Of a DNA stretch of 64,000 nt, positions 26,855 to 31,741 are shown piece by piece. The DNA is from Pseudomonadota bacterium. GTDB taxonomy: Bacteria; Pseudomonadota; Gammaproteobacteria; Xanthomonadales; Xanthomonadaceae. Every line of letters begins with the position of its first letter. Positions within the stretch are counted from its first letter, which is position 1. The position numbers and the translations under genes were made by a program. The notes under the pieces are model-generated. The model was not told where the DNA came from, ran no database searches, and worked only from the letters and a program-made list of their open reading frames with translations. The stretch lies in NCBI GenBank assembly GCA_018242365.1, contig JAFECB010000017.1, positions 372,001 to 436,000 on the forward strand. Direction: 5' to 3'.

Positions 26855-26884
26855 TTGACAGCTCTCGCCGCAGTGCAGCAAAGT
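26855..26884 (+). promoter_or_regulatory. Promoter of the thr operon
   Basis: A perfect -35 TTGACA (26855-26860), then an 18-bp spacer and a weak -10 CAAAGT (26879-26884). It lies just upstream of the threonine-rich leader. Transcription would begin near 26891, at or only a few nt before the leader's first ATG, implying a very short or absent 5' UTR. Confidence 0.6.
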
Positions 26885-26903
26885 CGGCACCATGTCCTTG
26901 TGC

Positions 26904-26966
26904 ATGACCATTACCACCCCGACCACCACTGGCACCACGCCGGTGCGGTCGGTCATGCCTGGGTAA
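26904..26966 (+). CDS. thrL: thr operon leader peptide
   Basis: 20-residue peptide MTITTPTTTGTTPVRSVMPG. Eight of its first twelve residues are Thr and one is Ile, the composition of a ThrL regulatory peptide. An in-frame ATG at 26892 would add MSLC. No Shine-Dalgarno is visible for either start. With the TTGACA promoter just upstream, the ATG at 26892 could begin a leaderless transcript. The stop TAA is 88 nt before thrA. Ribosome stalling at Thr codons under threonine-tRNA shortage would change folding of the following RNA. Confidence 0.8.
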   Translation: MTITTPTTTGTTPVRSVMPG

Positions 26967-26987
26967 CGCGTCACACCAGTCAACGGC

Positions 26988-27050
26988 CCCCGCAGCAACG
27001 AGGCGGGGCGCGAATCCCGACTCCACGCCGCGTGGGCCTCCAATCGGAGG
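26988..27050 (+). promoter_or_regulatory. Attenuator region of thrABC with Shine-Dalgarno-sequestering hairpin
   Basis: Three small stems follow the leader peptide: CCCCGC/GCGGGG (26988-26993 with 27003-27008), CCACG/CGTGG (27023-27027 with 27031-27035) and CCTCC/GGAGG (27037-27041 with 27046-27050). The last stem contains the thrA Shine-Dalgarno GGAGG, four bases before the ATG at 27055. No T run follows any stem, so control is more likely at translation initiation than by an intrinsic terminator. Alternative pairings were not computed. Confidence 0.6.
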
Positions 27051-27054
27051 TTCC

Positions 27055-29523
27055 ATGGATTCGCCCGCGTCCGCAGTCTCGAAACCGTTCTGTCGCGCCC
27101 ACAAGTTCGGCGGGAGTTCCCTCGCCGACGCCGACTGCATTCGCCACGTCGCCAGCCTGTTGCTCGCCGACGATGCGTCGACGCAAATCGTGGTGGCCTC
27201 GGCCATGCGCGGCACCACCAATGCGCTGTTCGAATTGGGTGAGCGTGCGGCGGCCGGAGGTGCATGGAAGGACGCGCTGGACGTGTTGCGGCAACGCCAC
27301 CGCGACGCGGCGCGGGCACTGCTGGAACACCCAAGCGTGATGGTGGATCGGATCGACGTCCTGTGCGAGGAACTGGCCTCGCTGCTGCAGCAGGCGGGAC
27401 ACGCCTCACTGGAGCGCGTCCACGGCATGGGCGAGGTGTTGTCGACTGCCTTGCTGCATGCGCATCTTCGTGAACGCGGCGGCGAATACGCGCTGCTGGA
27501 TGCGCGCGACGTACTGGTGGTCCGGCACACCGACCTCGGCGCGGTGGTCGATTGGGAACAGAGCACGCAACGCCTCGTCGACTGGCACCGACGGCATCCG
27601 CAGCCACGCGTCGCCATTACCGGCTACATCGCCAGTGACATCGACGGCCAGCCCACCACCCTCGGCCGCAATGGCAGCGACTATTCGGCGGCGATCTTCG
27701 CCAGTCTCTTTGATGCCGACGAATTGCAGCTGTGGAGCGACGTCGATGGCGTGCTCTCGGCCGATCCGCGACTGGTGCCGGAAGCAGTGCCGTTGGCGGC
27801 GATGAGCTACCGCGAGGCCTGCGAACTGGCGTATTTCGGCGCCAAGGTCATCCATCCGCAAACGATGACACCGGCGATCGCACGTGGCCTGCCGATCCTG
27901 ATGCGCAACACCTTTCGCCCGGAGTTCGCCGGCACCCGCATCGACGGCGAAGGCGACAGCGGCGCATCCAGCCCGGTGAAGGGGCTGACGCTCAGTGGCG
28001 GCCTGGCGCTGGTCTGCCTCGAAGGCGCCGGCTTGATCGGTGTGCCGGGCACCGCCGAACGTGTATTCGCCGCCCTGCATGCCGCGCGCATTTCGGTGGT
28101 GATGATTTCGCAGGGCAGCTCGGAACATTCGATCTGTTGCGTGGTCCACGCAGGCGATGCGGAGTCGGCCAGCGCCGCGATCCGCACTACCTTCGCCCGC
28201 GAGCTCGCCAGTGCACAGGTCCAGGGCGTGACCGTGCAAACCGGCATCAGCGTGCTGGCAGCGGTGGGTGATGGCATGGCCGGCACTCCGGGCGTGGCCG
28301 CACGGATGTTCGATGCACTGGCCCGTGCCCGAGTCAATATCCGCGCGATTGCGCAAGGCGCATCCGAGCGCAACATCTCGGTGGCGATCTCGGCAGACGA
28401 TGCCACCCGAGCCCTGCGCGCCGTGCATGCGGCGTTCTGGCTTTCACCACAAACCCTCGCGCTTGCGGTGATCGGACCGGGCAAGGTCGGCAGCGCCCTG
28501 CTCGACCAATTGCAGGCCGCGCGGCAACGGCTGCACGACGATGCCAACATCGACCTGCGTCTGCGTGCGCTGGCCAGCCGCAACCGGCTATGGCTGTGCG
28601 GACACGGCGACAGTACCGACTGGCGCACGCGCATGCAGGCCGCAGCCAGCGACGACGGACTCGACCAGCTGGCTCGGCACCTGCTGGAGACCCACCTGCC
28701 GCATGCGGTCATCATCGACTGCAGCGCCAGCGATGAGGTTGCCGAGTATTACGAAAGGTGGTTGGCCGCCGGCATCCACGTGATCACCCCGAACAAACAG
28801 GCCGGTGCCGGCCCGTTGGCGCGCTTCGACGCGATCCGCGCTGCACGCGCGAAAAGCGGCGCGCGGTTCCGCTACGAGGCCACGGTGGGCGCCGGCTTGC
28901 CGGTGATCTCCACCCTGCGCGACCTGCTCGACACCGGCGACGCACTGATCGCGATCGACGGCATCTTCTCCGGCACCCTGGCATGGCTGTTCAACAAGTT
29001 CGACGGCAGCGTGCCGTTCTCCGCATTGGTGCGTGAAGCCCATGCGCTGGGCTATACCGAACCCGATCCACGCGACGACCTGTCCGGCACCGACGTGGCA
29101 CGCAAGCTGGTGATCTTGGCTCGCGAGGCCGGCATGCCGCTGTCGCTGGCCGAGGTCACGGTGGAGAGCCTGGTCCCGGATGCCCTGCGCGATTCCGATC
29201 GCGATGTGTTCATGGCCGGGCTGGACGCGCTGGATGCGCCCATGCTGGCGCGGTTGCAGGCCGCGCATGCGCGTGGCTGCGTATTGCGCTATGTCGCCCG
29301 TTTGCAGCGTGATGGCCACGCCTCCGTTGCGCTGTGCGAGCTTCCCGTCGACCATGGCTTCGCCCATCTGCGACTGACGGACAACTGCGTGTCGTTCACC
29401 ACCCGCCGCTACTGCGACAATCCCTTGGTCGTGCAAGGCCCCGGCGCGGGGCCGGAAGTGACGGCCGCCGGCGTGTTCTCCGACCTGCTGCGGCTGGCTG
29501 CTGCCTTGGGAGCCAAGCTGTGA
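27055..29523 (+). CDS. thrA: Bifunctional aspartate kinase / homoserine dehydrogenase I
   Basis: 822-residue fusion. Aspartokinase (about 1-290) opens with [18 protein letters not shown]. Tandem ACT regulatory domains follow (about 310-455), containing [16 protein letters not shown]. Homoserine dehydrogenase (about 470-822) has the nucleotide loop [31 protein letters not shown] and [19 protein letters not shown]. It catalyses the first and third steps of threonine/methionine synthesis from aspartate. ATG at 27055 follows GGAGG by 4 nt. It overlaps thrB by 4 nt. Threonine feedback on the ACT domains and leader control are expected. Confidence 0.97.
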
Positions 29524-30452
29524 GCGCGGCAGTCCACGCAGCGCGGGCCTTCGCGCCCGGCTCGGTCGGCAATGTCGGGGTCGGCTTCGACATCCTCGGC
29601 CACAGCATCGCTGGCATCGGCGATACCGCCACGGTGCGCCGCATCCCCGATCCGACCGTGCGCATCGCCGCGATCCGCGGCACGGTCAGCGGCCTGCCAC
29701 TGGATGCGCAGCGCAATACCGCCGGGATGGCGCTGATCGCGCTGCGTGAGGCACTGGCGCTGCCGTTCGGTTTCGAGCTGGAGCTGGACAAGGGTATCCC
29801 GCTCGGTTCCGGGCTTGGCGGCTCGGCGGCCTCCTGCGTGGCCGCCTTGGTGGCGGCCAATGCACTGCTGGACACGCCACTGCCACCGCAGACGCTGTAT
29901 CCGCACGCCTTGGCCGGCGAAGCCGTCGCCAGCGGTGGTCGCCACGGCGACAACGTCGGCCCGATGCTGCTCGGCGGATTGGTGCTGGCGACCACGGACC
30001 GCCTGACCAGGATCGACGTGCCTGCGGCATGGCACGCGGCGGTGGTGCACCCGCATGCCGTGCTGGAAACCCGACGTGCCCGCGAGGCATTGGCCGGCGC
30101 GTATGCGCTGAAGGAGTTCGTCGCGCAAAGCGCCAACCTCGCGCATGTCTTGCTGGGCTGCGAACGCGGCGACGCGTCGCTGGTCCGCGCCGGCTTGTCC
30201 GATGTGCTGGTGGAACCGCGCCGCGCGCCCTTGATCGCAGGGTTCGCCAAGGTGAAGCAGGCCGCACTGGATAGCGGCGCGATGGGCGCCAGCATTTCCG
30301 GCGCAGGCCCGAGCCTGTTTGCGTGGTGCGAGGACGAAGCCACCGCAAGACGCGCGGGCGCAGCGATGGCACAGGCGTTCACCGTCGCCGGATTCGCCAG
30401 CGACCTGCATCTCACCCCCATCGCCGGCCCCGCAGCACAGGTGTTGGCATGA
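29520..30452 (+). CDS. thrB: Homoserine kinase
   Basis: 310-residue GHMP kinase that phosphorylates homoserine. The ATP loop is [17 protein letters not shown], the N-terminal motif is [17 protein letters not shown], and the third motif is [15 protein letters not shown]. Start is GTG at 29520, overlapping the thrA stop as GTGA; the frame is open further upstream inside thrA. It overlaps thrC by 4 nt (ATGA). Confidence 0.96.
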
Positions 30453-31741
30453 ACGCATACAGCACGCGCGGACGCGAGCCCGTGGTCTCGATTGCCGACG
30501 CGATTTCCGCCGGCCTCGCGCCGGATGGCGGCCTGTACATGCCGGACGCCTGGCCGCAGTTCCATGCCAAGGAGTTCGATGACGCCCACACGCTGGCCGA
30601 TGTCGCCATCCGCTTCCTCGCGCCGTTCTTCGCCGGCAGTGCGCTGGAAGCCGCCCTGCCCGGCATCTGCCGTGACGCACTCGCGATCGACCCACCACTG
30701 GCAGGCTTCGGCAAACCGGACGATTTTCTGCTGGAGCTGTTCCACGGCCCCACTGCCGCCTTCAAGGACTACGGCGCCGCCTTCCTCACCGGCTGCTTGT
30801 CCGCGCTGCCGCGTGGTGACAAACCATTGACGATAGTCGTTGCCACCTCCGGCGACACCGGCGCGGCGGTCGGCGCGGCCTTCCATCGCAAACCCGGTGT
30901 GCGGGTGGCGATTCTCTATCCCGATGGCCGGGTCGCACCGCGACAGGCGCATCAACTCGGCTGCTTTGGCGACAATGTGCGGGCCTTCCGCGTGGATGGA
31001 AGCTTCGATGACTGCCAGCGCCTCGCCAAGACCCTGCTGGCCGACGCCGACTATCGCCGCGCGGTGCCCTTGGGTTCTGCCAACAGCATCAGCCTCGGTC
31101 GCCTGCTGCCGCAGGCCGCGTATTACGCGCATGCCGCGCTCGGCCATTTCCGCAGCCGTGGCCAGCCGCTGAACTTCGTCATCCCCACCGGCAATCTCGG
31201 CAATGCGCTGGCCTGCCTGCTGGCCAGACGCATGGGCCTGCCGGTAGGCGAGATCGTGCTAGCCAGCAATGCCAATGACGTGTTGCCGAAATTCTTTGCA
31301 GGCGAGGACTACACGCCGCAGCCCAGCCTTGCCACCCTCGCCAATGCGATGGACGTGGGCGCGCCCAGCAATTTCGAACGCCTGCAGGCACTGTACCCGG
31401 ATCCTGCAGCACTCCGTGGTGTGATGCGCGCCGAAGCGGTCAGCGACGCACAGATCCGCACCAGCATCGTGCGCACCCGCGAAACGCGCGGCCACGTGGT
31501 CTGCCCGCATACCGCCTGCGCCGCCGAGGTGCTGGATCGCCTGCGCGCCGCTGGTGCGGGCGGCACTTGGGCCGCGGTCGCGACAGCGCATCCGGCAAAG
31601 TTCCCGGACGTGGTGGAGCCGCTGCTGGGTCAAACCGTGCCCTTGCCTGCACCGTTGGCGGCGATGCTGGCCCGACCCAGCCGCGCGCAACCACTGGCCA
31701 ACGATGACGTCGCCCTGCGCGATTTGCTCAGGCGCAGCTGA
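30449..31741 (+). CDS. thrC: Threonine synthase
   Basis: 430-residue PLP enzyme that converts O-phosphohomoserine to threonine. The PLP Lys sits in [17 protein letters not shown]. The phosphate/PLP loop is [15 protein letters not shown], and [22 protein letters not shown] comes later, shown here in two parts ([19 protein letters not shown]). Starts [14 protein letters not shown], typical of the proteobacterial short class. Last gene of thrABC; no clear terminator before the tRNA-Arg promoter. Confidence 0.96.

Follow-up and report, generated by a model that had tools for sequence, protein, structure and literature searches.

Organization of the thr locus

The window, i.e., the whole stretch of 64,000 nucleotides that was analyzed, carries a threonine biosynthesis operon on its forward strand, and the genus of its genome counts Thermomonas MAGs among its named members. 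Pfam assignments identified thrA (27055–29523) as a fusion of aspartokinase (AA_kinase and ACT domains) and homoserine dehydrogenase, thrB (29523–30452, start codon approximate) as a homoserine kinase of the GHMP kinase family and thrC (30449–31741) as threonine synthase. A Thr-rich leader ORF of 24 codons (26892–26966) lies on the same strand upstream of thrA, with ∼90 nt of G+C-rich RNA between it and the thrA start at 27055, and the divergent gene queA is found on the other side of the leader region. The sequence upstream of the leader ORF shows a −35 box, TTGACA (26855–26860), and a weak −10 box, CAAAGT (26879–26884), both on the forward strand, and no full sigma-70 promoter consensus was detected there by scan. 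The leader has no second copy in the window genome, where the best further match was no better than E 0.44.

The leader was not recognized by existing models. The Rfam Thr_leader family (RF00506) scored 16.4 bits in the window against a gathering cut-off of 55 and, with E values as high as 10 allowed, matched none of 13 relatives. The NCBIfam models of the thr leader peptide (TIGR02077 and NF007329) did not match the leader peptides of the window or its relatives, and as a control the NCBIfam thr-leader models did recognize E. coli thrL.

The leader ORF and its promoter

The original prediction had proposed a 20-residue leader peptide, MTITTPTTTGTTPVRSVMPG (26904–26966), with eight Thr and one Ile. 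This peptide is indeed present, but conservation places the start at an in-frame ATG farther upstream (26892), which gives the 24-residue product MSLCMTITTPTTTGTTPVRSVMPG; the 20-residue version begins at the second ATG, which is absent from two relatives (L012 and L013) that keep the first. A TTGAC(A) box was found in 140 of 142 homologous leaders, and in all 140 its first base is placed 35–39 nt before an in-frame ATG or GTG, hence transcription is expected to start at the AUG or within 2–3 nt of it. No SD-like motif precedes the leader start in any of the 140 homologues. This fixed spacing and the absence of an SD (140/140) make it probable that translation of the leader ORF begins on a leaderless mRNA. 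The last 26 codons of the leaders contain a mean of 7.3 Thr.

Distribution of the leader across the order

Leader homologues were found before thrA in 142 sampled species of Lysobacteraceae and Rhodanobacteraceae. These were collected by whole-genome searches in the family and in Rhodanobacteraceae, together with a scan of named genomes (Xanthomonas, Stenotrophomonas, Pseudoxanthomonas, Arenimonas, Tahibacter, Rudaea, Dokdonella, and others), and exclusion of one mis-called locus (L011) left 142 usable leaders. In nearly every one, 82–102 nt separate the leader stop from the start of the gene. A covariance model (R1) matched 82 of 250 genomes of the order. Occurrence outside the order was rejected, as the three matches obtained in 229 genomes of the class all belonged to the family of the window. 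The original prediction would have been undermined by a lack of conserved Thr codons or of the hairpin in related genomes, and both are conserved, with leaders in 142 species. Sequence comparison thus indicates that the thr leader is conserved across the whole order, far from chance.

In 12 Rhodanobacteraceae genomes (L210–L216 and L219–L223), the element is followed by a homoserine dehydrogenase gene that stands alone and mostly starts with GTG; Pfam identified the gene in one example (L211). This gene takes the place of the bifunctional thrA, the leader having stayed with the homoserine dehydrogenase half. Other deviations in organization were also observed. A Rhodanobacter MAG (L154) has apparently kept the promoter and the RNA segments a–e described below while missing the leader ORF and segment 2; unless this reflects an assembly error, it would serve as a test case provided by nature. 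A genome from another family of the order (L029), devoid of the Thr leader, has long CCCCGGTC-like tandem repeats from ∼330 to 60 nt upstream of thrA. A TPP riboswitch (RF00059) is found no more than a few hundred bases from the thr leader in L097 (437–539, 59.7 bits), and a truncated 34-bit match to it was obtained in L079 (494–561); its presence near the thr leader in these two Lysobacter-like genomes suggests a thiamine gene next door.

Covariation supports five helices in the leader RNA

The leader RNA can be divided into seven segments. Segment 1 (26907–26939) is the run of Thr/Ile codons (eight Thr and one Ile), and its pairing with segment 2 is worth −22.6 kcal/mol in the window. Segment 2, GGUGCGGUCGGUC (26942–26954), forms the end of the leader ORF and pairs with segment a, CGGCCCCCGCAGC (26984–26996), which can pair with 2, b, or d in a mutually exclusive manner. 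Segment b, GCGGGGC (27003–27009), pairs with a or with segment c, GCGAAUCCCG (27010–27019). Segment d, GCGUGGGCCUCC (27030–27041), is the anti-SD arm and pairs with a or with segment e (27046–27057), comprising the thrA SD GGAGG (27046–27050) and the AUG (27055–27057). All segments lie on the forward strand. A CGU shortly after segment 2 (26949–26957 of the window, at the end of the leader ORF) is near-invariant across the order, with variable encoded amino acids (V/G), and is mostly outside the 2:a pairing.

The pairings were evaluated in 82 leaders by an alignment-free covariation test, which asks whether two segments pair more strongly within a species than between species. Support across genera was obtained for 2:a (p 2.6e-6), a:b (p 2.4e-5), b:c (p 1e-8), a:d (p 2.2e-5), and d:e (p 0.0021), whereas the pairs 1:2, b:d, 2:d, c:d, 2:c, and c:e had none. 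A second set of 37 Rhodanobacteraceae leaders, nearly all of them absent from the first 82, gave the same result (2:a, p 7.8e-9; a:b, p 3.1e-8; b:c, p 1.7e-5; a:d, p 0.0066; d:e, p 0.0083), with none of five control pairs supported; the p-values of both tests are inflated by shared ancestry. Column pair counts in an alignment of 112 sequences (A3) agreed for 2:a, a:b, and a:d. The column test for d:e was not above its shuffles in this alignment, probably because one clade appears to be misaligned, and the support for d:e comes from the alignment-free tests. Examples of compensatory change include the replacement of GGUGCGG/CCGCACC by GGAUGCGG/CCGCAUCC in L086 and by GGAGCGG/CCGCUCC in L188. 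According to these comparisons, compensatory change has preserved the five helices 2:a, a:b, b:c, a:d, and d:e. Taken by itself, the fold of the whole leader in the window is unremarkable (z = −1.05), and the case rests on comparison.

Occlusion of the thrA start

The original prediction had placed the thrA ribosome site in a CCTCC/GGAGG stem; such a stem exists and has been kept by covariation. In the predicted fold, 27032–27041 pairs with 27046–27050 and 27052–27056, leaving U27051 bulged (−13.8 kcal/mol), and the hairpin (27032–27056) takes in the A and U of the thrA AUG. The mean probability of the SD being unpaired in the 142 species is 0.10 (median 0.01) as compared to 0.33 when the upstream stretch is shuffled, and 94% of these species fall below their own shuffles.

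A further pairing was observed in the window species. The sequence GCGAATCC (27010–27017), within segment c, is complementary to thrA codons 1–4 (GGAUUCGC/GGATTCGC, 27057–27064), and the resulting domain, which encloses the SD hairpin, has a predicted energy of −30.3 kcal/mol. It is confined to the window species and several congeners, with p 0.02 within the genus only, and was rejected as a general feature, being absent outside the genus.

The absence of a T tract after the final stem, also noted originally, holds in the window, where no terminator-like site was found. Between segment a and the start codon, no T run is longer than four, and runs are of three or fewer in 141 of 142 leaders. 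An intrinsic terminator was hence rejected, both for the window, which lacks any terminator-like site, and for the 142 species, none of which has a U-tract.

Predicted states of the leader and direction of control

Segment a has three alternative partners (2, b, and d) and segment d has two (a and e), so that three states of the RNA can be proposed, and the position of the ribosome on the Thr/Ile-rich leader ORF would decide which partner segment a takes. With segment 2 exposed (state I), 2:a and b:c would form, and d would hide the SD and AUG in d:e. In state II, a:b would form with d still hiding e. In state III, a ribosome covering segment 2 would allow b:c to form and a to capture d, leaving the thrA SD free. 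Folding with alternative pairings and covariation across relatives, both proposed along with the original prediction, bear on this scheme. The former found competing helices of which only a:d, predicted to form around b:c in state III, exposes the SD, and the latter supported all five helices. Release of the SD by b:d pairing was considered as well and rejected, as b:d showed no covariation in either the 82 leaders or the Rhodanobacteraceae set.

The cost of exposing the SD and AUG was calculated to be ∼8.1 kcal/mol with the RNA free from segment 2 onward and 3.1 kcal/mol with only the part past the leader stop free. Masking past the leader stop lowered the cost by ∼5 kcal/mol in 115 of 117 Lysobacteraceae leaders and in 22 of 25 thrA-type leaders of Rhodanobacteraceae, and the same sign was seen in 31 of 32 genera in an earlier version of the calculation with more thrA sequence. 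The hom-type leaders did not show this difference (6/11, not significant). In the window species, the SD was ∼0.00–0.02 unpaired at equilibrium in every ribosome position, in part because segment c pairs with the first thrA codons. From the lower exposure cost, thrA is predicted to open when a ribosome stands at the end of the leader; with the ribosome on the upstream Thr codons or with an untranslated leader, the folding model indicates that the thrA start should stay shut.

In a simple form of translational attenuation, stalling on the Thr codons would free the SD. This was not supported, and equilibrium folding gave the opposite sign, as an exposed segment 2 captures a and leaves the SD hairpin intact. 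On average, ∼8.5 Thr/Ile codons per leader leave segment 2 free when the ribosome stalls on them, as against ∼1 that overlaps segment 2, and uniform stalling would therefore mostly lock the SD. If all Thr codons stall equally, the direction predicted by the model is the wrong way round for a biosynthetic operon. The terminal Thr/Ile codon, lying 6–12 nt upstream of segment 2, may bring this direction into line with threonine sensing. In 116 of 136 leaders, the Thr/Ile codon closest to segment 2 precedes it by 6, 9, or 12 nt, and the codon ACT is enriched at the last Thr position (29/100 vs. 74/931 at earlier Thr codons), as would be required if the final stall were the decisive one. Slow decoding of this terminal codon during Thr/Ile shortage would be the trigger that raises thrA translation.

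Alternative readings of the element

In textbooks, the thr attenuator acts by terminating transcription. Control of translation initiation is the best reading of the present element owing to its Thr leader, its SD-hiding hairpin, and the absence of an intrinsic terminator in 142 species. The original proposal of translational rather than terminator-based control gains support from the covariation of that hairpin and from the same absence. We consider it somewhat probable that the element is a translational switch by which a leader peptide controls the thr operon, and threonine supply probably controls the start of thrA translation and not a stop of transcription as in E. coli. A more specific and more tentative version, which we regard as rather less likely to be right than wrong, is that the terminator was converted across the order into a three-state translational switch with a leaderless leader, turned on only by a stall at the last Thr/Ile codon or by partial shortage. 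Transcription attenuation devoid of a U-tract is unlikely, although it has points in its favor: 2:a and a:b have the 2:3/3:4 layout of E. coli thrL, the Thr codons are so placed that a stall exposes segment 2 and gives the expected direction, and a:b extends to ∼12 bp, judged by eye, in hom-type leaders. Here a:b would be a terminator or a Rho- or pause-dependent stop at plentiful Thr, 2:a the antiterminator, formed upon stalling at the Thr codons, and d:e secondary. Such a reading leaves the retention of a:d, b:c, and the SD-hiding d:e unexplained and has to contend with the lack of a terminator-like site in the window and of a U-tract in the 142 species.

The order of folding offers another possibility, to which we give somewhat less credence than to a stop of transcription. 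With a slow ribosome, 2:a would hold segment a until b:c has folded, and once the ribosome moves on over segment 2, a would pass to d and the SD would open; with a fast ribosome, a:b would form first and the SD would be trapped closed. Such a hand-over would assign a function to each of the five helices as well as to the upstream Thr codons and predicts maximal expression at moderate Thr shortage and not at complete starvation. The toehold asymmetry that it needs was not found, the core of b being 0.27 unpaired in b:c and that of d 0.31 in d:e. It is very improbable that the leader works without starvation sensing, with thrA turned on whenever ribosomes efficiently complete the leader, as a report on growth and translation. 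Equilibrium folding, which favors an exposed SD only with the ribosome near the leader stop, agrees with this, but the conserved Thr/Ile run would then be pointless and the response to Thr inverted. With respect to the translational switch itself, the parts of the element are well supported: sequence comparison points to a real, order-wide element, unrecognized by the libraries searched, that would be a translational variant of the thr attenuator. That it operates in cells, and that translation is the regulated step, we infer from sequence.

The whole order, including Xanthomonas and Stenotrophomonas, appears to keep the sensor and to switch the output to translation. The three-partner segment a is unusual, and the sensor ORF is probably leaderless. 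A description of this element would fill an annotation gap, as no Rfam or NCBIfam model matches it, and would account for thr regulation in Lysobacterales. The leaders also provide natural compensatory mutants for studying how the position of the ribosome sets RNA structure.

Comparison with known systems

The leader shares with E. coli thrL (RF00506; TIGR02077) a Thr/Ile-rich leader ORF before the thr operon, a GGUGCGG-type segment at the end of that ORF pairing with a CCGCACC-type segment 3, and the alternative pairings 2:3 and 3:4, corresponding to 2:a and a:b. Unlike thrL, it has no U-tract terminator, hides the thrA SD in an added hairpin, and contains two further helices (b:c and a:d) and a probably leaderless leader ORF. 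The 2004 FEMS survey of attenuation by Vitreschak and colleagues reportedly may already list a Xanthomonas thr leader. No description of a Lysobacterales thr leader was found in the literature searched, which did not cover that survey. Amino-acid attenuators have been given as an Rfam set (PMC3766115). In Actinobacteria, an SD-sequestering LEU element and translational ileS T-boxes have been proposed to act at translation initiation, and no threonine element was reported there (PMC1262725). The present element shares with these the control of amino-acid genes by hiding of the SD, in a different lineage, for a different amino acid, and with a different architecture.

The element can also be set beside another class of leader. 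Translational attenuators of the ermC type consist of a uORF and a downstream SD held in a hairpin, and a ribosome masking an upstream segment allows an alternative pairing that frees the SD. The thr leader likewise has the SD of the gene in a conserved hairpin, and a:d is computed to free it on masking of the upstream segment, as judged from the covariation of a:d and the shift in energy, the effect being weak in the window species. In ermC-type leaders, the inducing condition makes the ribosome stall on the masked segment, and only the last Thr/Ile codon is so placed here. Unlike the ermC type, the thr leader is abundant in codons of the pathway product, has no drug signal, and carries the extra competitor a:b. 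In its mode of action, the element would most closely resemble a translational attenuator of the ermC type that has been added to a thr leader.
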